A program made the position numbers and the translations under genes. The notes below the pieces were generated by a model. That model was not told the origin of the DNA, made no database searches, and saw nothing but the letters and a program-made list of their open reading frames with translations. DNA of 64,000 bases, from NCBI RefSeq assembly GCF_000739615.1, contig NZ_BATP01000045.1:62001-126000 (forward strand), in the 5' to 3' direction. Below are positions 21,281-39,157 of the stretch, one piece after another; position 1 is the first letter of the stretch, and the number at the start of each line of letters is the position of its first letter. This stretch comes from Haloferula sp. BvORR071. Its GTDB lineage: Bacteria > Verrucomicrobiota > Verrucomicrobiia > Verrucomicrobiales > Akkermansiaceae.

Positions 21281-21994
21281 ATGGCCAATTTCTTCCCGCG
21301 CTGGACCAATTTTCTGCCCCTGAAAATCGCCATTTGTGCAGGTGCCGTGGCCACTGGCGCGGTCTTCGCCTTCACTTACTACGCGACGCCGAAGACCCTT
21401 GCCGCGGGCTACCAGCCTTCGCAGCCGATCCCGTTTTCACACAAAATTCACGTGGATCAGTTGGGTTTGGATTGCCGCTACTGCCACTCCTTCGAGGATG
21501 TTTCGGGCACTTCGAACGTTCCGGGCAGCAACACCTGCTGGAACTGTCACCAGCACGTCCGCAAGGACAGCCCGAAGCTGCAGCCGCTGCGTGACCGCAT
21601 GGATCCGACCCTGAAGTCCCCGGACTTCGGCAAGCCAGTGAAGTGGGTGCGGGTCCACAAGCTGCCCGACTACGTCTATTTCAACCACTCCGCGCACTTG
21701 AACCGCGGGATTTCCTGCCAGAGCTGCCACGGCGACGTGGATCGCATGGAAACGGTCTACCAGAAGAACAGCCTCTCGATGGGCTGGTGCCTGGAGTGCC
21801 ACCGCGCGCCGGAGAATCACCTCCGTCCGCTGGAAGAAGTCTTCAACCTGAAGTACGACCCGCAAGTCTACTTCAACGAGCATCAGGCGGAAATGCAGAA
21901 CCTGGGCGTCAAGAAGCCCGAGGATCTCGGCAAGGTGCTCAAGGAGCACTGGAACATCCACTCCAAGGAGACCTGCGCGACCTGCCACCATTGA
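21281..21994 (+). CDS. actA: ACIII pentaheme cytochrome c subunit ActA
   Basis: 237 residues from ATG 21281. An N-terminal membrane anchor (about residues 12-32) is followed by five heme c sites: CRYCH (65-69), CWNCH (86-90), CQSCH (146-150), CLECH (170-174) and CATCH (232-236). Five CxxCH motifs at this length, right before a fused molybdopterin-fold/Fe-S gene and an NrfD-like gene, identify ActA of Alternative Complex III. It relays electrons from the quinol-oxidising core to soluble or membrane cytochrome c on the periplasmic side. It is the first gene of a 15-gene plus-strand operon. The upstream in-frame start at 21203 lies inside the regulatory palindrome region and was rejected. Confidence 0.93.
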   Translation: MANFFPRWTNFLPLKIAICAGAVATGAVFAFTYYATPKTLAAGYQPSQPIPFSHKIHVDQLGLDCRYCHSFEDVSGTSNVPGSNTCWNCHQHVRKDSPKLQPLRDRMDPTLKSPDFGKPVKWVRVHKLPDYVYFNHSAHLNRGISCQSCHGDVDRMETVYQKNSLSMGWCLECHRAPENHLRPLEEVFNLKYDPQVYFNEHQAEMQNLGVKKPEDLGKVLKEHWNIHSKETCATCHH

Positions 21995-22072: not shown

Positions 22073-25000
22073 ATGAGCAAGCGCATCTGGCAACACCCCG
22101 AAGTTCCCGCCGATGAAACCACCGTTTCGTGGCGGAGCGTCGGTCAGCTTGAGGACACCCCGCACTTCCGCTCCTGGATGGAGCGCGAGTTCCCGCAGGG
22201 CGTGGCGGAAATGGCGAATGAGGAAGATGCCGAGGTTTCCCGGCGCTCCTTCATGAAGCTGATGGGCGCCTCGACCGCACTGGCAGGTTTCGGCCTCGCC
22301 GCTTGCCGTCGCCCGGAAAGCTACATCATTCCCTACAACAAGGCGCCGGAGTGGGTGATCCCGGGCAAGGCGACCTACTACGCATCCAGCATGCCGCGCC
22401 CCGGTGGTGCCGTGCCGCTGGTGGTGACCACTTTTGAAGGCCGCCCGACCAAGGTCGCGCCGAACTCGCTGCACCCGGACATGAGCGGCACGGATGCCTT
22501 CGCTCAGGCCTCGGTGCTGGATCTCTACTCGCCCTCACGCTCGCGCACGGTGCTCAACAACGCCCAGGCTTCCAGCCGCGCGGAGTTCGAGAAGGTGTTG
22601 GCGACGGTGGCAGCGGATGGCGCGGCGAAAGTTGCCTTCGTCTTCGGCCACGATGATTCCCCGACCCGGGCACGCCTGATCAAGGACCTGAAGGCCAAGT
22701 TCAAGGCCGCTGAGTTCTTCGCCTACGAGGCGCTTGAAGGGACCCAGGTGCTCGCCGATGGCGTGGCCCAAGTGGTTGATTTCGAGAAAGCGGATAAGAT
22801 CCTCTCGCTCGACAGCGATTTCCTCTGCCTCGACGGGCAAGGCAAGACCAGTGCCTTCTTCAATCGCCGCAAGCCGGAAGGCGCGGCCTACGACAAGAAG
22901 GCCAATCCGGATTCGATGAACCGCCTCTACGTGGTGGAGAGCGTCTACTCGATGACCGGTGGTATGGCCGACCACCGCCTGCGCGTGGCCCCGAGCCAAG
23001 TGCTGCGGGTGGCCGCCCAGATCGCCCGCGAACTGGGCGTGAACGCCGGCTCCGCGGTGGAAGCGATCACTGACGAGAAGCATCTCAAGTGGATCAAGGC
23101 GCTGGCCGCCGACCTCAAGGCCTCCGGCAGCAAGTCGGTGGTGCTGGCCGGTTCCCGCCAATCGGCTGCGGTGCAGCAGATTGCGCTGGCCATCAACGCG
23201 GCGCTCAGCAGCGCGGCGGTGAAGGGCGTGAAGCGCGATACCAGCGGTCTCGGCAACTTCGACGGGCTGGTGGAAAAGCTGAAGGGCGGCGCGATCGACA
23301 CGCTGTTCCTTTTGACCCCGGCCAACCCGGTTTACGATGCGCCGGCGAATGCTGGATTCGAGGCCGCGATGGCCAAGGCCAAGACCGTGATTCATCTCGG
23401 CAGCCGCACCGATGCCACCGCCCACAAGGCGACTTGGCACGTGCCGGTAACCCACTATCTGGAGAGCTGGGGCGACGGGCGGACCCTGACCGGGGTCTAC
23501 ACCGTGGTGCAGCCGATGATCCTGCCGCTCTACGGCGATTGCGTGAGCGAGCTGGAATTGCTGGCAGCGTTGCTGACCGCCGATGGCAAGCTGATCACCG
23601 GCGAGACCGCGGATGGCAAGCCTTCCCCGGCCTACGACGCGGTGCGCGCGACCTTCGAAGCGATCGGCGGCAAGGGCGACGAGCCTTGGAAGAAGCTGCT
23701 GCGCGACGGTTTCCACGCCAAGTCCACTTACGAATCGGCTGAGCTCACCGCAGCGGCTGGAACCATCTCGGCGCCGCCGGCGGCGAGCGGAGTGGAAGTG
23801 ATTTTCTCGACCGACGGTTCGGTCTATGACGGCCGTTGGATCGACAATGGCTGGCTGCAAGAAGCCCCCGATCCGATCTCGAAGATTTCCTGGGACAATG
23901 CCGCGCTGATCGCGCCGGAGACCGCGAAGAACCTCGGGATCTACGATGAGATCGTGCAACTGGAGACCGAGCGTGCGGCCAAGAGCCCGGACGCGGAAGG
24001 TCCTCAACGCACCGGTCCGCTGATCAAGGTCAAGGTCAACGGCGAAGAGCTGGTCCTGCCAGCCATGATCGCTTTCGGCCAAGCCGAGAACACGGTGGTG
24101 ATCCCGCTGGGTTACGGCCAAGGCTTCGACAAGGAAGACAAGTTCAACCGGAATGCCAAGGGCAACTCCCCGGCCAGCCACGTCGGCTTGGTGGGTGTGA
24201 ACTCGGGCTTCAATGCCTACCCGCTGCGCCACTCGGAGACGAAGTACTTCGCCACCGGCGCAAGCGTCGAGAAGGCGGAAGGCAAGTATCCGCTGGCCCT
24301 CGTGCAGGAGCACTTCGCGATGTATGGCCGCGCGCTGGCCCGCGAGATCTCCACGATGGAGGACGAGAAGAAGGGGGATTTCGCCGAGCAGCTCCAGAAC
24401 GTCGCGAAGCAGGGCAACGACGCCCACGCGCCGGAAAACATTTCTCTCTACAAGCAGGAAGACAAGAAGGGTGATCCCCACCTGAGTGACAAGATTCACC
24501 AGTGGGGGATGACGATCGACCTGTCGTCCTGCATGGGCTGCAACGCCTGTCTCGTCGCCTGCCAGGCCGAGAACAACATCCCGATCGTGGGCAAGGAGCA
24601 GGTCATGAAGGGCCGCGAAATGCACTGGATCCGGATGGACCGCTACTTCGCCATCGAGAAGCCCGAGGCCGGCAAGGAAAAGGACGTCTTCGACCTCGGC
24701 AACCCGGCGCTGGTTCCGCAACCGGTGGCCTGCATGCAGTGCGAAAGCGCGCCTTGCGAAACGGTTTGCCCGGTGAACGCCACGGTTCACGACCAGGAAG
24801 GCCTGAACGTGATGGCCTACAACCGCTGCATCGGCACCCGCTACTGCGCGAACAACTGCCCGTATAAGGCCCGCCGTTTCAACTTCTTCGACTACAACAA
24901 GCGCAACCCGCTGATCGCCCACAACCTCTACAAGGGTCCCTTCGGCGAGAAGCAAGTCGGGACCGCGCCGCACCTGCAGCGCAACCCGAACGTCTCGGTC

Positions 25001-25393
25001 CGCATGCGCGGCGTGATGGAAAAGTGCACCTACTGCGTGCAGCGCCTGAAGGACGCCAAGATCCGCCAGAAGCGCGGCCAGAAGCAGGAAGTCCTGCTGA
25101 CCGGCGAGCGTTCCTCGCAGCTCAGCGTGAGCAACGAGACCCTGCGGATCCCAGTGGACTCCGTGAAGGTCGCCTGCCAAGAGGCCTGCCCGGCCGGTGG
25201 CATCGAGTTCGGCAACCTGCTCGACGAGGATAAGTCCGTGATGGGCCGCGCCAAGAAGAGCGAGCGCAACTACGAGCTTCTGCACTACATCGGCACCAAG
25301 CCGCGCACGACCTACCTGGCGCGGGTGAAGAATCCGAATCCGACGATGCCGGACGCGCCTTCCATCGGCAAGGCGACGATCCACATGCACTAA
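22073..25393 (+). CDS. actB: ACIII iron-sulfur/molybdopterin-fold subunit ActB
   Basis: 1106 residues. A Tat-like segment ([20 protein letters not shown], near residues 57-76) precedes a molybdopterin-oxidoreductase-like domain (about residues 80-800). In characterised ACIII this domain binds no Mo cofactor. The C-terminal ferredoxin-like domain has four cysteine clusters: [12 protein letters not shown] near residue 820, [24 protein letters not shown], and CTYCVQRL with CQEACPAGG. This is the B1-B2 fusion typical of ActB. It carries electrons within the periplasmic arm to the ActA hemes. Long open frames on the opposite strand are coding shadows. Confidence 0.93.
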
Positions 25394-25418: not shown

Positions 25419-26906
25419 ATGGGAGCCACTTCCACAGAACATGCGCCGAGCGAGACGCGGCAGGGACCAAAGATCCCGGTGCTGGAGCGCGAGAACCTTA
25501 TCCTGAGCGGTCGTTCGTACCACTGGATCACCGAGCGCATCGTCGGCGTGGTGGAGAACCGCCAGCCCTTCTTGTGGTGGCTGCTCTTCATCCCCTGCGC
25601 GCTGATCGCGATGGTCGGCGTCGGCATGGGCCTGACCTACCTCGTTTCGACGGGTGTCGGTGTCTGGGGCATGTCGAACCGCGTCTTCTGGGGTTGGGAC
25701 ATCACCAACTTCGTGTTCTGGATCGGTATCGGTCACGCGGGAACCCTGATCTCCGCGGTGCTCTTCCTAACCCGGCAGAATTGGCGAACGTCAATTAACC
25801 GAGCGGCGGAGGCCATGACCATCTTCGCGGTGATGTGCGCCGGCATTTTCCCGGCATTCCACGTCGGTCGTGTCTGGATGGCCTGGTTCCTGGCCCCGAT
25901 CCCGAACGCCAACGCGATCTGGCAGAACTTCAAGTCGCCGCTGCTGTGGGATGTGTTCGCGGTTTCGACCTACTTCACGATCTCGCTGATCTTCTGGTAT
26001 CTCGGCATGGTGCCGGACCTCGCGACCATCCGCGACCGCTGCAAGCCGGGCCTGCGCAAGATGCTCTACGGCATCTTCTCCCTCGGCTGGCGCGGTGGTA
26101 ACCGCCAGTGGAGCCACTACGAAATGGCCTACCTGTTGCTGGCCTCGCTCTCGACCCCGCTGGTGCTTTCCGTGCACTCGGTCGTGTCCTTCGACTTCGC
26201 CACCTCGATTGTTCCCGGCTGGCACACCACCATCTTCCCGCCGTACTTCGTCGCAGGCGCCATCTTCGGTGGCTTCGCGATGGTGCTCACCATCATGGTC
26301 CCAGCTCGCCAGATCTACGGCCTGCACGACCTGATCACGATGAAGCACATCGACAACATGGCGAAGATCATCCTGCTGACCGGCACGATCGTCGGCTACG
26401 CCTACCTGATGGAGCTCTTCGTGGCCTACTACTCGGGTGCGAAGTATGAGATGGACGCCTTCAAGTATCGCATCACCGGTCCTTACTGGTGGGCTTACCT
26501 GGCGATGATGAGCTGCAACGTGCTGTCGCCCCAGATCTTCTGGTTCAAGGCTGCTCGCGAGAACCTGTGGGTAATCATGGGAGTCTCCATGTGCGTGAAC
26601 GCCGGCATGTGGTTCGAGCGCTTCGTGATCATTGTGACCACCTTGGCGCGCATGTTCCTGCCGGGTGACTGGAAGTCCTACAGCCCGAGCTACGTGGAGA
26701 TGGCCCTGTTCATCGGCACCATCGGCATGTTCCTGGCGCTCTTCCTCCTCTTCCTGCGCTTCCTGCCTTGCATCAACATTGCCGAAGTGAAGTGGACCCT
26801 CAAGGAGTCCGACCCGCACTTCGACGACCACCACGACCATCCGGATGAAGGGGTCCAGACGATCCCTTCCTATCAGCACGAGCTGCACTCGAATGCCAAG
26901 GCATGA
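25419..26906 (+). CDS. actC: ACIII integral membrane subunit ActC (NrfD/PsrC family)
   Basis: 495 residues with about ten transmembrane helices of the NrfD/PsrC type, beginning near residue 47 ([20 protein letters not shown]) and ending near residue 450. [20 protein letters not shown] and [14 protein letters not shown] are characteristic of ActC. The family provides the quinol-binding site and a proposed proton path. It starts 25 bases after actB. The C-terminal His/Asp-rich tail ([14 protein letters not shown]) is extramembranous. Confidence 0.92.
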
Positions 26907-26956: not shown

Positions 26957-27511
26957 GTGAGCACCACCCGCAAACGAGTTTACGGATACCTCGCCGAGTT
27001 CGGCAGCGCTTCCGCCCTGTACAAGGCGGCGGAGAAGGTGCGCGATGCCGGCTTCCGCAAGTGGGATTGCCACACGCCGTACCCGGTCCACGGACTGGAT
27101 GGGGCGATGGGGATGAAGCGCTCGATCCTGCCGTGGTTCGTGTTCTTCGGCGGCATGCTGGGGACCGCGACCGGCTTCGGCTTGGCCTACATCACCCAGG
27201 TGGAGATCTACCCGACGGTGGTGCAAGCAAAGCCGGCCAACCTCTTCACCGTGCCGGCTTTCTTCCCGATCATGTTCGAGCTGACGATCCTGTTCTCGGG
27301 TTTCACCACGCTCTTCGGCCTGCTGGCACTGATGAAGCTGCCGCGCCTCAACCACCCGCTGTTCGCCAGCCGCCAATTCCACCGCGCGACGGACGACGCC
27401 TTCTTCATCGCGCTCGAAGCGCGCGACCCGAAGTTCCACTTCGATAAGACCCGGGCCTTCCTTGAGGAGATCGGTGGCAAGAGCATCGAACTCGTCGAAG
27501 AGGAGGACTGA
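26957..27511 (+). CDS. actD: ACIII membrane subunit ActD (DUF3341)
   Basis: 184 residues from a GTG start at 26957 (next residues STTRKRVYGYLAEF). The DUF3341 pattern is clear: VYGYLAEFGSASALYKAA near the start, then DCHTPYPVHGLD, then two transmembrane helices (about residues 57-80 and 95-120), and a C-terminal globular part ending IELVEEED. In ACIII structures ActD is a two-helix peripheral subunit packed beside ActC/ActF. It lies in the expected position between actC and actE. Confidence 0.9.
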   Translation: MSTTRKRVYGYLAEFGSASALYKAAEKVRDAGFRKWDCHTPYPVHGLDGAMGMKRSILPWFVFFGGMLGTATGFGLAYITQVEIYPTVVQAKPANLFTVPAFFPIMFELTILFSGFTTLFGLLALMKLPRLNHPLFASRQFHRATDDAFFIALEARDPKFHFDKTRAFLEEIGGKSIELVEEED

Positions 27512-27559: not shown

Positions 27560-28264
27560 GTGAAATACTTCTTCATCGCCTACGCGATTATCGCGGCCCT
27601 GTTCATCGGCTTGATGCCGGCACGGGGTTCGAAGAGCCCGAACGCACCCTTCCGCCTGTTCCCGGACATGGATGAGCAGGACAAGCTGAAGGCGCAGAAG
27701 CCGGATGACTTCTTCGCGGACGGCCAGGGCGGGCGCTTGCCGGTGCACGGCACGCAGGCACTGGGCTTCAATCCCGAAGGCTCGAAAGAGATCGGCGGCA
27801 TTCCAGAAATGGAATTCGGCGGTGGCACTGGCTACTACGCAACCGGCGGGATCGACGGCTACTACGCCAACGGCATGCCCGAGGAGCTTGGGCTCACCGA
27901 CGAGAACGTGGGTGCTTTCCTGCGCCGCGGCGAGGAAGCCTTCAACATCAACTGCTCGATCTGCCACGGCAAGTCGGCGGACGGGCAGGGGATCACCGGC
28001 CAGTTCGGCGTTCCCGGCATCGCCAACCTGACCGACGATACCAAGAAGCAGACGGTCTATCCGGACGGCCGGATGTTTGAGGTGATCACCAACGGCAAGG
28101 GCCAGATGGGCTCCTACAAACACAACGTGCCGCTGCGCGACCGCTGGGCGATCATCGCCTACGTCCGCACGCTGCAATACGCCCGCAAGGCTCCCTATGA
28201 AGGTGCGGTGAAGGCCGCCTACGACAAGGGCATCGCCGAACAGCAAGCCAAGGCAGGCAAGTAA
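27560..28264 (+). CDS. actE: ACIII monoheme cytochrome c subunit ActE
   Basis: 234 residues from GTG 27560 (KYFFIAYAIIAALFIGLMPA is the anchor or signal). A single heme c site, CSICH, lies at residues 132-136, followed by GKSADGQG and downstream Met residues that can supply the sixth ligand. Length, one heme and position before actF fit ActE. It is thought to sit at the periplasmic face and to mediate electron exit with ActA. Confidence 0.9.
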   Translation: MKYFFIAYAIIAALFIGLMPARGSKSPNAPFRLFPDMDEQDKLKAQKPDDFFADGQGGRLPVHGTQALGFNPEGSKEIGGIPEMEFGGGTGYYATGGIDGYYANGMPEELGLTDENVGAFLRRGEEAFNINCSICHGKSADGQGITGQFGVPGIANLTDDTKKQTVYPDGRMFEVITNGKGQMGSYKHNVPLRDRWAIIAYVRTLQYARKAPYEGAVKAAYDKGIAEQQAKAGK

Positions 28265-28284: not shown

Positions 28285-29664
28285 ATGTCTCATCACTTTG
28301 TCACATCAGCCGACATCCCGGCGGAAGGCGAGCGGATCTCCAGCAGTAAGCTGGACTCGGTCCGGCGCATCGCCGGCGGCGCGGCCGCGATCACGGGCCT
28401 GATCAGCGCTTACCTGCTGTTCGTTGCGCCGCCCAATATCGCCGGTCCTTTCGCCTACTCTTGGCTCTTCGCGCTCTTCTTCTTCTTCACGCTGGCGATC
28501 GGCGGTTGCTTCTGGACCCTGCTCCACAACGTCTCGAATTCGAGCTGGGGCACCTCGGTCCGCCGCATCATGGAAAACCTCGGCGCCGTCTTCCCGTGGA
28601 TGGCGATCTTCGCTGCGCCGCTGCTCTTCCCGCAGGTCCAGAAGTGGCTCTTCGAGTGGATGAACATCCACAACGCCGCGGGTGGCAGTCCCTTCGATGG
28701 TTTCCTCTTCGGCTTCTACGGCAGTGATTCCGTGAAGCATGGCTTGGAAGAACAGGGTCAAGCCCTGCTGGTGAACAAGGCTTGGTACATGAACAAGGTG
28801 GCCTGGTATATCCGCTTCGCCTTCTACTTCATCGGCATGGGTCTCGTGATCAATGGTCTGCGCAAGCTCTCCACTGCCCAGGACGTGGACCCGAATCCGG
28901 GCACCGGCAACCTGTTCAAGGCCCGCGCTCGTTCCAGCTACAGCCTGATCATCTTCGCAATCACCATCACCTTCGCCGGCATCGATTGGCTGCAAGGCCT
29001 GAAGTATGAGTGGTTCTCCACGATGTGGGGTGTCTACCTCTTCGCCGGTGCCGCGCTGAACTCGATGGCAGTGATCATCATCACCGCGACGCTCTTGCAG
29101 AAGGGCGGCTACCTAAAGCGCGTAGTGGGCCCCGAGCACTACCACATCATGGGCAAGCTGCTGCTGGCCTTCACGATCTTCTGGGCCTATGTCTCCTTCT
29201 CCCAGTTCTTCCTGATCTGGTATGCGAACATCGCGGAAGAAACCCAATGGTTTACCATCCGTAACACGGAAGGCTGGAACACCGGCAGCATCGCCTTGGT
29301 CTTCTGCCACTTCGTGATTCCTTTCGTGATCTTGCTCCAGGCCTGGCTGAAGAAGAACCCGAAGCTCCTGAGCATCGTGTGCGCTTACACCCTGGTGATG
29401 CACATCCTCGATCACTACCTGATCGTGATCCCGGAGCGCTCGGTCTCCCTGGGCAACATGCTTCCCGATATCTTCCCGCTGAAGAGCGATGCGCATCCCG
29501 ATGGCATCACGACCGTGATTCCGGGTGCCTTCTGGGGTGACATCTTCGCCTTTGTGGCGGTGGGCTCCGGCTTCCTGTTCTTCTACCTGCGGGCCCTGTC
29601 TCAGACGGCGACCTACCCGCACCGTGACCCGCGGATCCTCGAGTCCGCCAACGTTTCCAACTGA
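28285..29664 (+). CDS. actF: ACIII integral membrane subunit ActF (NrfD-like)
   Basis: 459 residues, about ten transmembrane helices, paralogous to ActC. Segments such as GCFWTLLHNVSNSSWGTSVR and LLLAFTIFWAYVSFSQFFLIWYA are characteristic of ActF. It completes the actABCDEF set. The gene follows actE by 20 bases and is followed 39 bases later by a monoheme cytochrome c gene, so the operon continues beyond ACIII. Confidence 0.92.
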   Translation: MSHHFVTSADIPAEGERISSSKLDSVRRIAGGAAAITGLISAYLLFVAPPNIAGPFAYSWLFALFFFFTLAIGGCFWTLLHNVSNSSWGTSVRRIMENLGAVFPWMAIFAAPLLFPQVQKWLFEWMNIHNAAGGSPFDGFLFGFYGSDSVKHGLEEQGQALLVNKAWYMNKVAWYIRFAFYFIGMGLVINGLRKLSTAQDVDPNPGTGNLFKARARSSYSLIIFAITITFAGIDWLQGLKYEWFSTMWGVYLFAGAALNSMAVIIITATLLQKGGYLKRVVGPEHYHIMGKLLLAFTIFWAYVSFSQFFLIWYANIAEETQWFTIRNTEGWNTGSIALVFCHFVIPFVILLQAWLKKNPKLLSIVCAYTLVMHILDHYLIVIPERSVSLGNMLPDIFPLKSDAHPDGITTVIPGAFWGDIFAFVAVGSGFLFFYLRALSQTATYPHRDPRILESANVSN

Positions 29665-29703: not shown

Positions 29704-30504
29704 ATGTCTTCCCAAAACGACAATCCCCTGATCCGCTTCGTCGCCTTCTGGTGGGCGCTCGGCGTGTTCTCGCTCTTCGCGGTGATCCTGCTAGCGTTGA
29801 AGCTGCTCGGTGGTGGCAAAGCGGAGTCCAACCCGCTTGAAGAAGCTGCTGCGGCGAAGCGCTATGAGGCGGCTGCCAAGGTGAAGTCTGCCCAAGCTGC
29901 GAATTTGGCCTATAAGGAAGTGGAAGCCGGCAAGGTTGTGCAGGTGCCGCCGCACGATGTGTTTCCGATCATTGGCAAGGAGTTGGTGGCCTCCAAGGGT
30001 GTGGCGGTAAAGGATCCCGCGCAGATCATTCCGGGTGGGCCTGCCGTCAATACCTCGGCTGATGCGGACTTCGGCGCTATCGACAAGATGAGCCCGCCTG
30101 CTGGCACTGCTCCGGACGAAGCCGCAATGGCCGCGGGCAAGGCAATGTTTACGGTTTGCGCCGCCTGCCACGGCATGGACGGCAAGGGCACCCCGATGGT
30201 CGGTCCGCCGCTGGCGGGTTCCGAGTGGGTGGACGGCCCGGTTTCGAACCTCATCCGCATCCAGTTCCGCGGCCTGACTGGCCCGATCCACGTTGGCGGT
30301 CAGGAGCTGACCTTCGCCGCACCGATGATGCCGGTGATCGCGGCGATGGATGATGCCACCATCGCGAACGTGCTGACCTACGTCCGCAATAGCTTTGGCC
30401 ACAGCGCTGGTCCTGTCCTGCCGGATCAAGTGAAGGCACTGCGCTCGGAAACCGGCAAGCCGCCGCTGACCGAGGCCGACCTGATCAAGCCGACCAAGCC
30501 CTGA
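29704..30504 (+). CDS. Membrane-anchored monoheme cytochrome c, first gene of the cbb3-like module
   Basis: 266 residues. An N-terminal anchor (residues 13-35, VAFWWALGVFSLFAVILLAL) is followed by an Ala/Lys/Glu-rich linker and a class I cytochrome c domain. One heme site, CAACH, is at residues 152-156, followed by GMDGKGTPMVGPPLAGSEW. Met308-like residues in APMMPVIAAM can be the axial ligand. It lies directly before the CcoN-like gene rather than after it, unlike standard ccoNOQP order. It could be an ACIII electron acceptor or an extra subunit of the cbb3-like complex. Confidence 0.85.
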   Translation: MSSQNDNPLIRFVAFWWALGVFSLFAVILLALKLLGGGKAESNPLEEAAAAKRYEAAAKVKSAQAANLAYKEVEAGKVVQVPPHDVFPIIGKELVASKGVAVKDPAQIIPGGPAVNTSADADFGAIDKMSPPAGTAPDEAAMAAGKAMFTVCAACHGMDGKGTPMVGPPLAGSEWVDGPVSNLIRIQFRGLTGPIHVGGQELTFAAPMMPVIAAMDDATIANVLTYVRNSFGHSAGPVLPDQVKALRSETGKPPLTEADLIKPTKP

Positions 30505-30532: not shown

Positions 30533-32056
30533 ATGTCCACACCATCCCAGACTCCGGTGAACGACGCGCTACGGCGCGCGGAGATCGACCTGTCGTTGCG
30601 CCACCCGGTGATGTTCTTCTTCACCAGCGGTGCCGCATGGCTGGCAGTGGCGATCCTGCTCGGGATCATCGCCTCGGCCAAGACGCACAGCCCGGATTTC
30701 CTTTCCAGTTGCTCCTTCCTGACCTACGGGCGGGTGCAGAGCGCGCACATCTCGGCGCTGGTTTATGGCTGGGGTTGCCAGGCGGCCTTCGGGGCCCTGA
30801 TCTGGCTGATGGCGCGCCTCTCGCGCCAGGAATGCCGCGCAGCCGGGATCATTCTGGTGGCAGGCCACGTTTGGAACTTTGCGATCTCGCTGGGCCTCAT
30901 CTCGATTCTTGCCGGTGAAGGAACAGGCATGCCGTGGATGGAATTCCCGGTCTTCGCCTGGGTGCCGATGCTGCTCGCCTATGCAGCGATCGCAATCTGG
31001 TCGATGGTCCAGTTCAAGCTGCGCCCCGCCGGTCACGTCTTCATCTCGCAGTGGTATATTCTGGCGGCACTGATCTGGTTCCCTTGGGTTTTCGCCAGCT
31101 CGCACCTGATGATCCACGCCTTCGCCGGTAACCCGGTCATGGCTGCGGCGATCAACGCTTGGTATCGCTCCGGGATGCTGCTGCTGTTCTTCGTGCCGAC
31201 TGGCATCGCGGCTGCCTACTATCTGGTGCCGAAGGTGACGGGTCGCCCGGTTTACAGCTACTCGCTGTCCTCGCTTGGTTTCTGGTCGCTGGCGATCATC
31301 GCTCCTTGGGCTGGCATGCAGAAGCTTGCCGGTGCGCCGATCCCGAACTTCCTGCCTTACCTCGGTGCCGCTGCGACGATCCTGTTCGCGATCCCGGCGA
31401 TCGCGGTATCGGTGAATCTTCTCAAGACCGCCTCCGGTGCGCCGGAAACGGTGGCGAACAGCCCTTCGCTGCACTTCACCTTGGCCGGTGTGATCGGCCT
31501 GCTGGTGCTGGGTGGCGCGGCGGTGTTCCTGAACAATCCGGCGGTCCTGCCGGGCACCCAGTTCTCGATGGCCAACTACGGCTTCGATCTGCTGGGCCTG
31601 TATGGCTTCTTCAGCTTCATCGCCTTCGGCGTGATCTACTTCGTGGTGCCGCGCATCACCCGCCGTGAGTGGCTGTCCAGCCGCCTGATCAAGATGCACT
31701 TCTACTTCTCGATCTACGGAGTGGCGCTCGTGGTGCTGGTGGCAGTCTTCGGTGGCGCGATGCAGGGCATCGGCCTGGAGGCTTACAAGCAGCCCTTTGA
31801 AGACGCGATGACCCGTGCGAACCCCTATGCGGTGGCAACCACGCTGGCCTGGTGCTTCCTGCTCTTCTCGAACGTCTTCTTCTTCTTCCACCTGACGCTG
31901 ATGTGGCTGCGCCTCGGCCGTCGCAGCTCGCACCCGACCCTGCTGGGTGCACACCACGCGGATGATCTCCACGACGCGACCCACGGTCCGGAAGGGGATA
32001 TCGACAACGGCGGTCCCGGCACGGTGATCCAGAATCCGCATCCGCACGCCCACTAA
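30533..32056 (+). CDS. CcoN-like heme-copper oxidase subunit I lacking active-site ligands
   Basis: 507 residues, about twelve transmembrane helices, clearly homologous to cbb3 oxidase subunit I. YGRVQSAHISALVYGWG aligns with the CcoN helix II motif and keeps the low-spin heme histidine as H72. RPVYSYSLSSLGFW and GVIYFVVPRI also match. The metal-centre residues are gone. WYGHN is WYRSG (S213 for the CuB His). The catalytic Tyr is A257. WAGPHHLH is WAGMQKLA (Q263, K264 for the two CuB His). GHVH is GFDL (F351, L353 for the heme ligands). All substitutions fall in gap-free aligned segments, so a frameshift is not the cause. The gene is intact and inside the operon. The alignment uses remembered CcoN sequence, not a computed one. 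Confidence 0.88.
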   Translation: MSTPSQTPVNDALRRAEIDLSLRHPVMFFFTSGAAWLAVAILLGIIASAKTHSPDFLSSCSFLTYGRVQSAHISALVYGWGCQAAFGALIWLMARLSRQECRAAGIILVAGHVWNFAISLGLISILAGEGTGMPWMEFPVFAWVPMLLAYAAIAIWSMVQFKLRPAGHVFISQWYILAALIWFPWVFASSHLMIHAFAGNPVMAAAINAWYRSGMLLLFFVPTGIAAAYYLVPKVTGRPVYSYSLSSLGFWSLAIIAPWAGMQKLAGAPIPNFLPYLGAAATILFAIPAIAVSVNLLKTASGAPETVANSPSLHFTLAGVIGLLVLGGAAVFLNNPAVLPGTQFSMANYGFDLLGLYGFFSFIAFGVIYFVVPRITRREWLSSRLIKMHFYFSIYGVALVVLVAVFGGAMQGIGLEAYKQPFEDAMTRANPYAVATTLAWCFLLFSNVFFFFHLTLMWLRLGRRSSHPTLLGAHHADDLHDATHGPEGDIDNGGPGTVIQNPHPHAH

Positions 32057-32104: not shown

Positions 32105-32839
32105 ATGAGCTTCCGCCAATTCGCATTCGGCCTCACTGCCTGCTTCCTCGTCCCGTGGGTGGCCATCGTGATCATTCCTTTCTTCATGATGCACCACCTG
32201 AAGCCGGTGGCATACAATGAAGCGACCGATGGCAAGGATGGCCTTTACAGGCCACAAGCGACCGGCCGTCTGGTGAACGGTTCGGAAGTCTATGCCGCGA
32301 ACGGCTGCTATCACTGCCACAGCCAGCTCATCCGTCCGGTCTATGCTGGCAATGACTTGGGCCGTCCGGACTGGGCTGGCCTGAAGAGCGACGAGGAGCG
32401 TGGCGACACCCGCCGCCAATCGAACATTTTCGACTATCAATTCGAGAAGTTCGCCCAGATCGGGGAGAACCGCTTTGGTCCTGACCTTTCGAATGTCGGC
32501 CTCCGGGTCGAGAAGGAGTATGCCAAGGGTAGCGATCCGAAGGTCTGGCTGCTGAACCATCTCTACAATCCGCGTGCGAATCCGAAGCTGGTGACCTCGA
32601 AGTGCCCGTCCTTCCCCTTCCTGTTCGAGACCAAGAAGATCCAAGGTCAGACACCGGCCAACGCCATCGTGGTCAAGGATGGCGAAGCCGTGGTGCCGAG
32701 CTTTGAAGCCGATGTGCTGGTGGACTACCTGATGTCCATGAAACACGACGACGCGGTTCCAGGTTCGATGAACCACCTGCCGCCCGCCCCGAAGGGTGGT
32801 GCCAAGGCTGCCGCCCCCGCCGCCGCTCCCAAGGGCTAA
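32105..32839 (+). CDS. CcoO-like monoheme cytochrome c subunit
   Basis: 244 residues. An N-terminal transmembrane helix (about residues 9-29) precedes the conserved CcoO motif GCYHCHSQLIRPV, with heme site CYHCH at residues 68-72. The FGPDLSNVGLR segment and HLYNPRANPK are also typical CcoO features. The C-terminus has an Ala/Pro/Lys tail. CcoO normally pairs with CcoN, feeding electrons to its low-spin heme. Here its partner keeps only one of that heme's two ligands. The CcoO itself looks fully functional. Confidence 0.88.
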   Translation: MSFRQFAFGLTACFLVPWVAIVIIPFFMMHHLKPVAYNEATDGKDGLYRPQATGRLVNGSEVYAANGCYHCHSQLIRPVYAGNDLGRPDWAGLKSDEERGDTRRQSNIFDYQFEKFAQIGENRFGPDLSNVGLRVEKEYAKGSDPKVWLLNHLYNPRANPKLVTSKCPSFPFLFETKKIQGQTPANAIVVKDGEAVVPSFEADVLVDYLMSMKHDDAVPGSMNHLPPAPKGGAKAAAPAAAPKG

Positions 32840-32866: not shown

Positions 32867-33625
32867 ATGCACGATCCTACCAAGCCCGACCTCGAGGAAT
32901 CGGTGAATGTCACCGAGGCCCACGAGCGCGTCCTCCGCGGTGCGGCCGCGGCATCCCGTGAAAACCGGCTCACCGAGAACGGTGCCGAGCCGGTCTCGAT
33001 GTGGGTGATGGCGCTGTGCTTCATTCCGGTGATGTTCGCCGGCTGGACTGCCTTCGGCTACGGCACGCCGCTGTTCTCCTACAAGGATACGGTCCGCGAA
33101 GGCTACGTGCAGGTGATTCCTCCGGATGACGATGGTGCGAAGGCTGAGCCAATGACCGCCGTCCTAGCCTACTCCAAGAAAGGCGCGAAGATTTACTCGA
33201 AGTGCAGCGGTTGCCACGGCCCGGACGGCAAGGGTGACGGCAATGCCTATCCTTCGCTGGCGGGTTCCGCCTTCGCGCAGGGCGAGAACGAGCGCTTTGC
33301 GATGATCGTTCTCAACGGCCTGACCGGACCGACTTCGTATGGCAAGACCTTCGGCGTGATGCCAGCGCAGGGCGCGGGCATGAGCCCCGAAGACCTCGCC
33401 TGCGTGATGACCTACGTCCGCAACAACTTCGGCAACAAGGTTGGCGATGTGGTGAGCAAGGCCCAGGCCGCCGAGGCCATCAAGATTTCCGCCGGCCGCG
33501 CCAAGGCCGGTGCAGCCGTCACCGGCGACGAGTTGAACGCCGATCACAAGAAGACCCTGTCGGGTGCCGCCGTCAAAGCGGACGACATGGTCGATCCGAT
33601 CACCCTCGAGGCGGTCGCCAAGTAA
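32867..33625 (+). CDS. CcoP-like membrane-anchored monoheme cytochrome c
   Basis: 252 residues. A hydrophilic N-terminus (1-43) is followed by one transmembrane helix (about 44-62, VSMWVMALCFIPVMFAGW) and a cytochrome c domain with one heme site, CSGCH, at residues 113-117, then GPDGKGDGNAYPSLAGS. CcoP proteins usually carry two hemes; only one is present. The last 60 residues are Ala/Lys-rich and low in hydrophobics. It follows the CcoO-like gene by 27 bases and precedes the aa3 oxidase subunit I gene, so it could deliver electrons to either. Confidence 0.82.
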   Translation: MHDPTKPDLEESVNVTEAHERVLRGAAAASRENRLTENGAEPVSMWVMALCFIPVMFAGWTAFGYGTPLFSYKDTVREGYVQVIPPDDDGAKAEPMTAVLAYSKKGAKIYSKCSGCHGPDGKGDGNAYPSLAGSAFAQGENERFAMIVLNGLTGPTSYGKTFGVMPAQGAGMSPEDLACVMTYVRNNFGNKVGDVVSKAQAAEAIKISAGRAKAGAAVTGDELNADHKKTLSGAAVKADDMVDPITLEAVAK

Positions 33626-33651: not shown

Positions 33652-35592
33652 ATGAGCGCCCACGCCGCACACGCCGATCACCACTCCGACCATGAGCACG
33701 GCCATGGTCACGGTCACGATGACCATCACCATCACGATCCGGGGTTCTGGAAGAAGTACGTCTTCTCCACGGACCACAAGACGATCGGGATCCAGTATGG
33801 CCTGACGGCGATGGCCTTCTTGGCCTTCGGCTTCTACCTGATGATGGTGATGCGCTGGAGCATCGCCTACCCGCACCGGCCGCTGCCGGAGTGGATGGCC
33901 TGGATCTTCACGGACACGTGGAAGGCACGCTGGCTGGTGGACGGCAAGGTGACGGGTGAGACTTACAACATGTTCGGTGCCATGCACGGCACGATCATGG
34001 TGTTCCTTGGGATTGTGCCGCTTGGCTTCGGTGCCTTTGGCAACTACGTCACGCCCCTCCAGATCGGTGCGGTGGACATGGCCTTCCCGAAGCTGAACAT
34101 GACGAGCTACTGGCTCTACCTGCTCGGCGGCCTGACGATGTGCCTTTCCTTCTTCATGGAGTCCGGTGCGGCCAAGTCCGGTTGGACGAACTACTCACCG
34201 CTGGCGGGATTCGCTGACGGGCAGATCGTGAACCAGTGGCTGGCCGGTCAGACGCAATGGCTGATCGGTCTGGTGCTGCTGATTTCATCCTCGCTGCTCG
34301 GTTCGGTAAACTTCGTCACCACGATCATCAACCTGCGGGCCCGCGGGATGACCTGGATGCGCATGCCCTTCTTCGTGTGGGCGATGCTGGTAACAGGCTT
34401 CTTGCTCCTGCTGGCCTTCCCTCCGCTGGAAGCCGCTGGCATTATGCAGCTCATGGACCGGGTTTCGCACTCGTCCTTCTTCATGCCTTCCGGCCTGTTC
34501 TCGAAGAGCGAGGGCCTGGCTGACCTTTCCGGTGGTGGTTCGCCGCTGCTGTTCCAGCACTTGTTCTGGTTCCTCGGTCACCCGGAGGTGTACGTTCTCT
34601 TGCTCCCGGCGATCGCCTGTGTGGCGGAAATCATTCCGGTGAACACCCGCCGTCCGCTGTGGGGTTACAAGGCGATGGTCTACGGGGTGATGACCTTGGG
34701 CTTCCTGTCCTTCATCGTGTGGGCTCACCACATGTATCTGACCGGCATGGGTCCGGTGGTTTCGACCTTCTTCCAGACCACCACGGTGCTGATCTCGATC
34801 CCGTCGGTGATTCTGCTCACCTCGATGATCATCTCGCTGTGGGGCGGTTCGATCCGCTTCACCCCGGCGATGATCTGGGCCTGCGCCTTCCTGCCGATGT
34901 TCGGTATCGGCGGTCTGACCGGTCTGCCGCTGGCCTTCAACCTGGTGGACCTGCACCTGCACGACACCTACTATGTGATCGGCCACTTCCACTACGTGGT
35001 GGCGCCAGGGATTCTCTTCGGCCTCTTCGCAGGGGTCTACCACTGGTATCCGAAGATCACTGGCAAGCACATGAGCAAGTTCCTCGCTCACTTGCACTTC
35101 TGGCCGAGCCTGATCTGCATGAACCTGATCTTCTTCCCGATGCTGACGCAGGGGATGGCCGGCTTCCACCGCCGCTGGTATAACGGTGGTGATGCCTACA
35201 TGCCGAGCGGCGAGGGCAGCACGAACGTCTTCAGCCTGATCGTCGAGAAGCACATCGACCTGAACATCCTGATGTCGATGGCGGCATGGGCGATGGCACT
35301 GGCACAGCTTCCCTTCGTGATCAACCTGTTCGGCTCGCTCTTCTTCGGCCGCAAGGTCGAGAACGACAACCCGTACGACGCGACGACGCTGGAATGGGCG
35401 ACGCCGACGCCTCCGGGCCACGGCAACTTCCTGACCGAGCCTTCCGTTTACCGCGGCCCGTATGAATACAGCCGCCCCGACTGCGAGGATGACTATCTGC
35501 CGCAGTGGGAAGAGCCCAAGCGTGAGGCAGGTGCCGTTCCTGCCGCCTCTGAGCTGCCCGGCCAAGCATCCACCCATCCTTCCGCCCACTGA
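33652..35592 (+). CDS. ctaD: aa3-type cytochrome c oxidase subunit I
   Basis: 646 residues, catalytic subunit of a proton-pumping type A heme-copper oxidase. Low-spin heme ligand H112 lies in AMHGTIMVFLG. The CuB site is H310 (LGHPEVY, with E312 and cross-linked Y314) plus H359 and H360 (WAHHMY). The heme pair is H445/H447 in GHFHYVV. The glutamate in HPEVY marks subclass A1. Everything the neighbouring CcoN-like protein lacks is present here. The first 29 residues are extraordinarily His-rich (HGHGHGHDDHHHH), unlike most subunit I proteins, and might bind copper or other metal. It starts 26 bases after the CcoP-like gene. Confidence 0.95.
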   Translation: MSAHAAHADHHSDHEHGHGHGHDDHHHHDPGFWKKYVFSTDHKTIGIQYGLTAMAFLAFGFYLMMVMRWSIAYPHRPLPEWMAWIFTDTWKARWLVDGKVTGETYNMFGAMHGTIMVFLGIVPLGFGAFGNYVTPLQIGAVDMAFPKLNMTSYWLYLLGGLTMCLSFFMESGAAKSGWTNYSPLAGFADGQIVNQWLAGQTQWLIGLVLLISSSLLGSVNFVTTIINLRARGMTWMRMPFFVWAMLVTGFLLLLAFPPLEAAGIMQLMDRVSHSSFFMPSGLFSKSEGLADLSGGGSPLLFQHLFWFLGHPEVYVLLLPAIACVAEIIPVNTRRPLWGYKAMVYGVMTLGFLSFIVWAHHMYLTGMGPVVSTFFQTTTVLISIPSVILLTSMIISLWGGSIRFTPAMIWACAFLPMFGIGGLTGLPLAFNLVDLHLHDTYYVIGHFHYVVAPGILFGLFAGVYHWYPKITGKHMSKFLAHLHFWPSLICMNLIFFPMLTQGMAGFHRRWYNGGDAYMPSGEGSTNVFSLIVEKHIDLNILMSMAAWAMALAQLPFVINLFGSLFFGRKVENDNPYDATTLEWATPTPPGHGNFLTEPSVYRGPYEYSRPDCEDDYLPQWEEPKREAGAVPAASELPGQASTHPSAH

Positions 35593-35654: not shown

Positions 35655-37376
35655 ATGGAAATCCCCTACATCTTCACCCCGCGCAAGGACACGGGGCTGG
35701 TCAACTCGAAGATCGCCATCTGGCTCTTCCTGGCCTCGGAAGTCATGCTCTTCGGCGGCTTTTTCTCCGCCTACATCTTCCTGCGCCTGGGTGCGGACTA
35801 TCCGTGGCCGGAGCGCACCCTGCCGGTGCTGCCGGGTCTGATTAACACCTTCGTTCTGATCGGTTCCTCCGTGACCGTGATCTTTGCGTGGATGTCGCTG
35901 AAGCTGCGCAAGTGGCGCCAGTTCCAGATCTTCATGGCGATCACTGTGGTCTGCGCGGGGATCTTCATGGTGCTGAAGGGCATCGAGTACAACGTGAAGT
36001 TCCACCACCAGGCGGTGCGCCTGAAGGACTATGCGATCCTCGAAGGTCACTTGGGCTTTGAGCTCAAGGAAGGCGTGCACGTCGGCCACGGCGAGCAGCC
36101 GAAGGAAGAGGATTTCGCGCTGAACCACCACGGCAAGAAGATCGAGGAAGACACGATCAACTATAGCACCAGTGAAGTGAGCTTCAACACGGTGCGCTAC
36201 CACCACGACTGGGTGGAGGAGATCATCGCCCACGCGGAAGCTGGCGGCACGGCCGTGACGCTGAAGGAAGACGTGGTGATGGGTAAAGGTGAGCAGGTCA
36301 AGGTGGACAAGGACGGCAACACCGAGCCGGCGACCACCCCGCTTTCCCGCGCTGACAATTTCGCCAAGGGTAGTGCGCTTTCGATGAAGCTGCTGGAGCG
36401 CATCACCGAGCTGCACAAGGACGCCCGCGCCCACAATGCCGACTTGCGGATCACCGCCTTCCGCAAGGCTTGGACCGTGGCCGACGAAAACTCCTCGGGC
36501 AAGACCGACCGCCAACTGGCGCCGGACGTGAAGATCGACGAAAGCCAGCTCGACCTGCATCACGAGCAGCCCGCGATTGCCTTCACGGTGGCTCCGGAGA
36601 CAGTGTTCCATTTCCGCCCGCGTGACATCCAGGAAAACGGCAGCCCCGCTACCCTGCGCGACGGCACGGCCCTGACCGGCAAGCTTGAGGAAAGCCCGAT
36701 GGTGTTCCACTACGTGGATGCGCTCGACTTCCGCTACCTGGCACTGAAGGTCCGCCAGAAGCTGGGCGTGGACGAACACTCCGACGCTGCTGACGGTGCG
36801 ATCGAAAAGGCGATCGAAGAAAGCTGGGTGATGGCAAAGAACCCGGAGCTCAAGGAGATCTGGGAGAAGCAGCAGAAGGCTGTGGGGCTCTTGGCTGCCG
36901 AGCTCGCCGCCCACAAGCGGGTGCCGACCGAGAAGGACAAGTACCGGATCAACTGGCAGGAGATGGCCTACTATGCGACCACTCCGCTGGCGGATATCAA
37001 GATCGATGCGGGCAAGTATGTGATGCCGCACGTGGACACCCAGCCCAAGGAGCAATTCTTCGGCCCGAACTACGAAGGCCGCGCCGAGCAACATGCCTTC
37101 CCGCATTTGGAAATCCCGCGCGAGCAGGTGGCCTTCGCCTCGAAGTTCGCGCCGGCATGGAACACCTACTACGCGATCTACTTCACGATGACCGGTCTGC
37201 ACGGCCTGCACGTCATCGGTGGCGCGCTGGTGCTCGCCTACTACCTGTTCTTCGGCAAGAAGATGTATCTGAGCAACCCGGAGTGGTTGGCCAACCGCGT
37301 GGAAGTGGGCGGCCTGTTCTGGCACTTCGTGGACTTGGTGTGGATCTTCCTCTTCCCGATCCTGTATTTGATGTAA
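35655..37376 (+). CDS. ctaE: Cytochrome c oxidase subunit III with a very large internal insertion
   Basis: 573 residues, where family members usually have about 200-270. Residues 17-115 hold the first three helices (IAIWLFLASEVMLFGGFFSA is diagnostic). Residues from about 488 hold the last two (FTMTGLHGLHVIGGAL, then VGGLFWHFVDLVWIFLFP). Between them lies a hydrophilic block of about 340-370 residues, without cysteines or transmembrane segments and rich in Glu, Lys and His. In this family the loop after the third (canonical fifth) helix faces the periplasm, so the insert should be periplasmic, where cytochrome c docks. The reading frame is continuous and in operon register, so the insert is real coding sequence. 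Confidence 0.9.
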   Translation: MEIPYIFTPRKDTGLVNSKIAIWLFLASEVMLFGGFFSAYIFLRLGADYPWPERTLPVLPGLINTFVLIGSSVTVIFAWMSLKLRKWRQFQIFMAITVVCAGIFMVLKGIEYNVKFHHQAVRLKDYAILEGHLGFELKEGVHVGHGEQPKEEDFALNHHGKKIEEDTINYSTSEVSFNTVRYHHDWVEEIIAHAEAGGTAVTLKEDVVMGKGEQVKVDKDGNTEPATTPLSRADNFAKGSALSMKLLERITELHKDARAHNADLRITAFRKAWTVADENSSGKTDRQLAPDVKIDESQLDLHHEQPAIAFTVAPETVFHFRPRDIQENGSPATLRDGTALTGKLEESPMVFHYVDALDFRYLALKVRQKLGVDEHSDAADGAIEKAIEESWVMAKNPELKEIWEKQQKAVGLLAAELAAHKRVPTEKDKYRINWQEMAYYATTPLADIKIDAGKYVMPHVDTQPKEQFFGPNYEGRAEQHAFPHLEIPREQVAFASKFAPAWNTYYAIYFTMTGLHGLHVIGGALVLAYYLFFGKKMYLSNPEWLANRVEVGGLFWHFVDLVWIFLFPILYLM

Positions 37377-37439: not shown

Positions 37440-37823
37440 ATGGCTGGTGATTCTCCAGAAGCTATCAAGAAGGCCGTCCGGCTTTACCTGTTGATCGGCG
37501 CTGTCCTCTTCGGCGGCACGCTGCTCACGGTGGCGGTGGCAATGGTCCCGTGGCTGGACTTCGGCCAGCATGGCTTCGACACCGCGGACCTTTGCATCGG
37601 CTTGGCGATCGCCACGGTGAAGGCGACGCTGGTGGCGCTGATCTTCATGCACCTTAACCACGAGCGGCGCCTGGTTTACTGGCTTTTCGGCTTTGGTTTG
37701 GTCGCCGCGTTTTTCTTGGTCGCCCTCATCGGCCTCGCGAAGTGGGATCCGATCCATTACAATGGTTTCAAGACCGGCGTTCCGGGCTCGGAGCACGTGG
37801 TGCCCTTCAAGGAAAACCGGTAA
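37440..37823 (+). CDS. ctaF: Cytochrome c oxidase subunit IV (prokaryotic type)
   Basis: 127 residues with three transmembrane helices (about 15-35, 55-72, 80-100). The VKATLVALIFMHLNHERRL segment is the hallmark of the prokaryotic COX4/CtaF-CyoD family, a small subunit that stabilises subunits I and III. It is located 63 bases after subunit III. Confidence 0.85.
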   Translation: MAGDSPEAIKKAVRLYLLIGAVLFGGTLLTVAVAMVPWLDFGQHGFDTADLCIGLAIATVKATLVALIFMHLNHERRLVYWLFGFGLVAAFFLVALIGLAKWDPIHYNGFKTGVPGSEHVVPFKENR

Positions 37824-38335: not shown

Positions 38336-39157
38336 ATGAGTCCTTCGAAATTCCTCAGCATCCCGGAATGCTTTTCCGCCCACGGCGGCCGCGTGGATCA
38401 CCTGATTGACGTGGTCCACTGGTTCATGATCGCGCTTGGCGCCGGGTGGTTCCTGTTCTTCGCCTACTGCCTGATCCGTTTCCGGGCCTCGGTGCATCCG
38501 CGTGCCTCGTATCACGGCGTGCGCAACCACATCTCGAGCCACCTCGAAATCGCGGTGGTGATCATTGAGGCCGTGCTGCTGCTCGGCTTCGCCTTTCCGC
38601 TCTGGCACGAGCGCACGGATAGCTGGACGGACGTGCAGAAGCTCGACCCGATCCGGGTGCGGGTGGTTGGCTGGCAGTTCGGCTGGACCTACCACTATGC
38701 CGGCAAGGACGGCAAGTTCGGCCGCATCAATCCGCAGAAGATCACCAGCAACAGCGACCCGGGCATCGACTTCGATGATCCGAACGCCCAGGACGACTTC
38801 ATCACGCCGACCCTGAAGATCGCCAAGGACCGCCCGGCGATTCTGGCCATCACCTCGAACGATGTGATCCACAACTACGCGATCGTGCCGATGCGCATCC
38901 AGCAGGACGCGATCCCCGGCAAGGAGATCCCGATGTGGTTCACGCCGATCAAGACGCTGGAAACCGCAGTCGTCTGTGCCCAGCTCTGTGGCGAAGGTCA
39001 CGGCAACATGGTCGGCCAGATGGAAGTGGTGGAAAACAAGGCCTTCCAAAGCTGGTTTGACGAGCAGTCGGCTTCCGCGCTGAAGACCCACGCTCCGGCG
39101 GCTCCCGCAACGGCGGAAGCCCAGAGAGCTCCGGCAGTGGAGACGGTGAGCCGCTAA
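38336..39157 (+). CDS. ctaC: Cytochrome c oxidase subunit II (CuA)
   Basis: 273 residues. Two transmembrane helices (about 28-48 and 70-90) precede the cupredoxin domain with VVGWQFGWTYHY. The CuA ligands are H179 (VIHNYAIVPM), C214, C218, H222 and M225, in CAQLCGEGHGNM. The usual Glu between the cysteines is Gln, which is tolerable because only its backbone carbonyl binds copper. There is no fused cytochrome c domain, so the enzyme is aa3-like, not strictly caa3. The operon's separate cytochromes c may supply that role. It is the last gene, an unusual place for subunit II, which more often comes first. Confidence 0.93.
   Translation: MSPSKFLSIPECFSAHGGRVDHLIDVVHWFMIALGAGWFLFFAYCLIRFRASVHPRASYHGVRNHISSHLEIAVVIIEAVLLLGFAFPLWHERTDSWTDVQKLDPIRVRVVGWQFGWTYHYAGKDGKFGRINPQKITSNSDPGIDFDDPNAQDDFITPTLKIAKDRPAILAITSNDVIHNYAIVPMRIQQDAIPGKEIPMWFTPIKTLETAVVCAQLCGEGHGNMVGQMEVVENKAFQSWFDEQSASALKTHAPAAPATAEAQRAPAVETVSR

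Follow-up and report, generated by a model that had tools for sequence, protein, structure and literature searches.

The closest described systems are the cbb3-type oxygen reductases, the NO reductases and the complexes built around alternative complex III (ACIII). In cytochrome cbb3 (CcoNOP; P. stutzeri, 3mk7), the catalytic subunit CcoN has a fold of 12 transmembrane helices, carries the CuB histidines, a cross-linked tyrosine and the ligands of hemes b and b3, and is accompanied by CcoO and a diheme CcoP. The NO reductases cNOR and qNOR belong to the same fold superfamily and retain both the metal-B histidines and the ligand of heme b3. Elsewhere, ACIII, as in its solved structures, is not known to need a CcoN-like subunit, and no such subunit is known in the ACIII–aa3 supercomplex of Flavobacterium johnsoniae, where the bridging hemes belong to ActA and ActE. 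That supercomplex combines ACIII with an A-type oxidase by using cytochrome c domains as a bridge (PMC8552683). In Opitutaceae and verrucomicrobial methanotrophs, ACIII genes have also been described beside a C-type oxidase (PMC8498564, which cites Refojo et al., 2010; PMC11102522), and both reports take the ACIII-linked gene as a functional cbb3 oxidase. The Kam1 genome paper ties the Methylacidiphilum cbb3 to high O2 affinity (PMC6688271).

The locus analyzed here includes a CcoN homologue, termed CcoN*, of the same gene family and with the same synteny as the C-type oxidase associated with ACIII in Opitutaceae and the methanotrophs. As in cbb3, adjoining genes encode CcoO- and CcoP-like mono-heme partners (CcoO* and CcoP*) and the 12-helix fold is shared, but CcoN* lacks the CuB ligands, the tyrosine, the heme b3 ligand and one heme b ligand, and its module lacks a canonical diheme CcoP and is embedded in an ACIII operon. 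Whereas the published ACIII-associated oxidases are called functional, about two thirds of the members sampled here have no active site. The association of ACIII with C-type oxidases is already known; the erased state of most sampled members is what is added.

A CcoN homologue within an ACIII operon

The window (the whole 64,000-nt stretch of DNA; coordinates are positions in it) carries a complete ACIII operon, actA to actF, followed by cytX, the genes for CcoN*, CcoO* and CcoP*, and coxA-C-D-B. An earlier note on this DNA dealt with CcoN* and did not include its setting, i.e., the ACIII operon, the CcoO- and CcoP-like partners and the aa3 oxidase genes. The features are as follows.

21281..21994, plus strand: ActA-like multiheme cytochrome c of ACIII with five CXXCH (frame read directly, start MANFFPRW)
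22073..25393, plus strand: ActB, iron-sulfur/molybdoenzyme-like ACIII subunit (Fe-S cysteine motifs in the sequence)
25419..26906, plus strand: ActC, NrfD-like membrane subunit (position and homology to other loci)
26957..27511, plus strand: ActD (Pfam PF11821 ActD, E 4e-60)
27560..28264, plus strand: ActE, mono-heme cytochrome c (Pfam Cytochrome_CBB3, E 9e-12; one CXXCH)
28285..29664, plus strand: ActF, NrfD-like membrane subunit (position and homology)
29704..30504, plus strand: cytX, TM-anchored mono-heme cytochrome c with a CcoP-like 'DNPLIRF' start (Pfam Cytochrom_C, E 6e-11)
30533..32056, plus strand: CcoN*, protein of CcoN fold that has lost the Tyr and the ligands of CuB and heme b3 (ORF, Pfam, alignment and model)
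32105..32839, plus strand: CcoO*, mono-heme cytochrome c resembling FixO/CcoO, with CXXCH at residues 68-72 and the axial Met replaced by Cys167 (Pfam FixO, above cut-off at 50.8 bits)
32867..33625, plus strand: CcoP*, TM-anchored mono-heme cytochrome c with conserved axial Met (Pfam Cytochrom_C, E 1e-12)
33652..35592, plus strand: CoxA, aa3-type cytochrome oxidase subunit I (TIGR02891, E 1e-161)
35655..37376, plus strand: CoxC, oxidase subunit III carrying a large hydrophilic insert (two stretches match Pfam COX3)
37440..37823, plus strand: CoxD, oxidase subunit IV-like (position)
38336..39157, plus strand: CoxB, oxidase subunit II; CuA motif present, heme c absent (Pfam COX2, E 8e-9)

The cytX gene between actF and ccoN* is largely confined to the window's family; about 15 relatives lack its heme domain and have just a short anchor whose start is unchanged. 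CoxC has 573 aa, with a hydrophilic insert of several hundred residues separating the two COX3-matching stretches; it is of similar length across the window's family, shorter in family f2 and absent in f4. The only match of the insert was to eCIS_core, below threshold, and the PDB gave none. CoxB contains the CuA motif in 62/63 cases and CXXCH in none (absent in 63/63), and therefore needs a cytochrome c donor.

CcoN* is encoded by an uninterrupted ORF (507 aa) which matches Pfam COX1 over the cut-off (E 3e-41) and TIGR00780 ccoN with E 4e-30, its 105 bits falling far short of the equivalog cut-off of 583. The closest solved structures are cbb3 CcoN chains, at about 20% identity. The AlphaFold model (pLDDT 82.5, pTM 0.85) superposes on 3mk7_D with Z 43.9 and an rmsd of 2.6 Å over 442 residues, indicating the CcoN fold; the comparison with a cbb3 CcoN structure that the earlier note proposed thus yields a shared fold. 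Against the NO reductase structure 4xyd, Z is 40.1.

An alignment was made of CcoN*, the genuine CcoN that this genome encodes elsewhere (L003, a CcoNO fusion with all ligands present) and 80 homologues. In it, H72, S213, A257, Q263, K264, F351 and L353 of CcoN* correspond to H, H, Y, H, H, H and H of CcoN. All three CuB histidines, the catalytic tyrosine and both heme histidines of helix X are gone, leaving no heme b3 ligand and only H72 of the two heme b ligands; each of these substitutions had been read correctly in the earlier note. The phmmer alignment of CcoN* with 3mk7 concurs at helix X and at the HH pair, and is off by one residue at S213 due to a loop gap; this register is settled because close relatives retain the histidine ('NAWYVHT' in the sister family). 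Offset conserved histidines, which the earlier note had considered as a sign against its reading, do not occur near the lost positions in the window or the 80 homologues. Three histidines conserved in the window's family, H112, H389 and H453, were rejected as displaced ligands: they lie in other helices, and H389 is common to genuine CcoN.

CcoN* thus lacks both the CuB histidines with cross-linked tyrosine of a cbb3 catalytic subunit (S213, Q263, K264 and A257) and, unlike NO reductases, the metal-B (FeB) histidines and heme b3 ligand. Judging from these residues, CcoN* almost certainly does not reduce O2. The alignment and the family-wide loss described below support the earlier proposal that it is a repurposed CcoN homologue binding at most one heme.

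The 80 nearest homologues, taken from genome contigs, are all from Verrucomicrobiota and nearly all labelled Verrucomicrobiales, Verrucomicrobiaceae or Akkermansiaceae. H72 is present in all 81 sequences including that of the window, whereas Tyr at 257 and His at 264, 351 and 353 are absent from every homologue; His occurs at 213 in one and at 263 in six, and position 353 is I, V, L or M throughout the window's family. As H72 is invariant and the other positions are erased in nearly all of the 80 homologues, the ligand loss is not ascribable to chance or sequencing error.

Comparison of ccoN* with its nearest relatives gives a dN/dS (omega) of 0.14-0.19, i.e., purifying selection, between the values of CoxA (0.08-0.11) and ActF (0.21-0.27). 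The ligand columns are retained in 0-37% of erased members (those which have lost the site). More than 20 non-ligand positions are retained in at least 90% of them, including W36, G66, G79, W114, N115, P139, W185, W210, K234, F250, P269, P271, F344, Y369, P373 and G396. R69, H343 and the K-channel tyrosine (L323 in the window), which are conserved in intact members, are relaxed in erased ones.

Intact and erased members across Verrucomicrobiia

A profile search of 388 Verrucomicrobiota genomes, with retrieval of the surroundings of about 80 members, places the CcoN* family throughout the class Verrucomicrobiia. ActF (or ActF-cytX) is encoded directly upstream in 84/86 loci and is unresolved in two; the N gene is immediately followed in 86/86 by a CcoO-like gene with one CXXCH and then, in 84/86, by a CcoP/cytX-like gene, again with one CXXCH. 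The cbb3 partners are therefore encoded alongside, CcoP being mono-heme rather than diheme, and intact and erased members share the ACIII-N-O-P synteny. One genus of the window's family, g2, whose genomes are small (about 20, e.g., G021 and G024; 2.2-3.3 Mb), has no member of the CcoN* family, unlike the rest.

All seven catalytic and ligand residues are kept by 27 of the 87 sampled members; the remaining 60 have no more than three, and counts of four to six do not occur. The ligand at position 72 is lost in 38 of the 60 erased members. Partial states occur in f2, the sister to the window's family, where H213 and sometimes H264 are kept, and in f6, where both low-spin heme ligands (H72 and H353) remain and the CuB and heme b3 ligands are lost. 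These states appear as expected of stepwise loss.

The family forms a single 87-row clade (SH-aLRT 99), distinct from the genuine FixN/CcoN encoded by these genomes, a further difference from cbb3. Erased rows lie inside intact ones twice (L134 within f3, and L133/L188 next to L152), and a third erased group is the large clade containing the window (57 rows, all erased). A clade with the same losses, which the earlier note had thought worth seeking, thus exists and is larger and more varied than expected. A single origin of the loss, with all erased rows forced into one clade, is rejected by the AU test (p-AU 0.002). The tree requires at least three losses, a cautious minimum because it is of a quick type with erased rows on long branches; losses inside the 57-row clade are uncounted because long branches meet among erased rows. 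The loss of the site has recurred in evolution and is family-wide, not a peculiarity of a single genome.

In the small genomes G001 and G146 (98-99% complete), the intact ACIII-linked N is the sole PF00115 protein and cytochrome bd genes are absent, suggesting that it is likely the only O2 reductase there and that the ancestor of CcoN* was probably a real oxidase. A CoxA-type oxidase is present in 50/50 erased genomes examined and absent from 4/26 intact ones (hypergeometric p 0.012), a contrast which depends on four genomes of two genera.

Two further sets of related proteins were seen. Stretches L117, L119 and L120 (f30/f63, other classes of the phylum) have intact CcoN-like and CcoO-like genes beside a protein of about 585 aa with seven CXXCH, and no ActB-F genes, which may represent another oxidase arrangement. 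Proteins of the COX1 family that are about 550-630 aa long and score in between for ccoN (G018:C1:3783959, G099:C1:3668587 and G376:C6:311419) are neither genuine FixN nor the ACIII-linked gene.

Partner cytochromes and a putative scaffold role

The axial ligands of the partner cytochromes differ in their fate. In the CcoO-like protein, the axial Met is present in 27/27 intact rows, is Cys in 79/79 of the window's family (codon of CcoO* Cys167, 32603-32605), and is lost in 10/47 other erased rows (nine substitutions and one gap). As the Cys is invariant and no other Met after the heme motif is conserved in the 79 rows of the window's family, a His/Cys-ligated heme c is predicted in CcoO*; hemes of this type have low potentials and specialist roles (PMC9562282). 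The CcoP-like protein retains its axial Met in 78/78 rows of the window's family and in 45/47 other erased rows. As read from these ligands, redox function fades from N to O and stays whole in P, the erosion tracking the electron path.

The intact version of the ACIII-linked N survives in many Verrucomicrobiia, and the ancestor of CcoN* would be the catalytic subunit of a C-type (cbb3-like) oxygen reductase linked to ACIII. Several lineages having another oxidase, of the CoxA type, lost the site of CuB and heme b3, and usually that of heme b as well, with retention of the 12-helix fold and of the CcoO- and CcoP-like partner genes. CcoN* would now be a cofactor-poor membrane scaffold placing the CcoP-like cytochrome c, together with CcoO*, beside ACIII. 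Electrons would flow from menaquinol through ACIII to the CcoP*-type heme c and on to an acceptor; for the window, the candidate is CuA of the aa3 oxidase whose genes follow immediately. From the lost ligands we infer that CcoN* has neither bound heme nor O2 activity, and from synteny and residue conservation only, that it associates physically with ACIII and that electrons take this route. The probability of the scaffold explanation as a whole is put at about 0.55. The wider proposition is more tentative and rated somewhat below an even chance: that the conversion of an oxidase catalytic subunit to a structural, cofactor-free subunit of ACIII took place three or more times, with a His/Cys-ligated, predicted low-potential CcoO-like heme c in the window's family.

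Some observations restrict the scaffold explanation or count against it. CoxA is missing within about 8 kb in 40/59 erased loci, so that a direct ACIII–scaffold–aa3 assembly may hold only in some orders; in most erased Opitutaceae-like genomes the gene lies elsewhere, and the acceptor may therefore differ between lineages. The conserved partner genes count against it in that CcoO* and CcoP* could serve an acceptor other than aa3. The invariance of H72 in the window's family is likewise unaccounted for by a scaffold. It would be explained if CcoN* held one low-spin heme b, bound by H72 and a second ligand, and relayed electrons from cytochromes c to quinone or another membrane partner, and the retention of H72 and H353 in f6 despite loss of the CuB and heme b3 ligands is consistent with this. 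However, the partner position 353 is I, V, L or M in the window's family, the conserved H112 and H389 are in other helices, R69 and H343 of intact members are replaced too, and H72 is gone from most erased members, which makes a heme b relay unlikely. As a multi-helix membrane protein of an ACIII operon, under constraint comparable to that of ActF, CcoN* might also be an ion or proton channel or an energy-coupling subunit like the cofactor-free ActC and ActF; but the C-family K-channel tyrosine, kept in intact members, is Leu323 in the window, and ACIII elsewhere is not known to need such a subunit, so this reading is given little credence. Of the roles listed in the earlier note (scaffold, electron conduit, or proton or quinone element), the scaffold is thus favored, whereas a heme b conduit and a proton channel are unlikely as the common function because position 72 is lost in 38/60 erased members and the K-channel tyrosine in the window's family.

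A departure of ACIII-CcoN*OP from O2 respiration, by feeding an alternative periplasmic acceptor (e.g., nitrous oxide or nitrite reductase) or by redox sensing via the Cys-ligated CcoO* heme, is suggested by the nos cluster inside the ACIII cluster of Methylacidiphilum caldifontis (PMC11102522), and by the uniform Cys ligand of CcoO* and the specialist roles of low-potential His/Cys hemes (PMC9562282). This is improbable in view of the aa3 oxidase genes directly downstream in the window, its order and Methylacidiphilaceae, and of the confinement of the altered ligand to CcoO*, with CcoP* unaffected. Although ligand loss and several long branches among erased members might be signs of a decaying pseudogene carried by its operon position, the intact ORFs of 80 near homologues, the omega of 0.14-0.19, many invariant W, P, G and R positions, the predicted CcoN fold and the maintained partner genes make decay highly improbable.

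Methylacidiphilaceae and the reading of C-type oxidase genes

All four pmoA-bearing genomes of the class, very probably Methylacidiphilaceae, are erased at the ACIII-linked locus, with Ser or Ala at position 72 and no Tyr or CuB set. No other CcoN was found in these four genomes, which have two A-type oxidases and other COX1-family proteins. The model of an erased N of this type, built from an alignment that included intact relatives, has pLDDT 83.4 and Z 46.0 to 3mk7, suggesting that the fold is kept even without the catalytic set and H72. The published calling of such genes as a high-affinity oxidase is probably wrong.

No description of ligand-free CcoN homologues was found in the openly available literature searched, and an earlier mention may exist. 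A classifier of heme-copper oxidases (HCO) discarded sequences without six conserved histidines (PMC3084760), which may be why the erased forms were overlooked.

Subunit I of heme-copper oxidases is usually read as diagnostic of O2 (or NO) reduction. Here, a large family under selection has an active site that is either complete or almost wholly erased, and because intact relatives are still alive, the conversion of an enzyme to a scaffold is open to direct study. The family also makes the non-catalytic contribution of the C-type scaffold testable. Genome papers have counted erased forms as cbb3 oxidases, e.g., in Methylacidiphilum (PMC6688271; PMC8498564), and inferences on O2 affinity and respiratory chains of such bacteria need revision.
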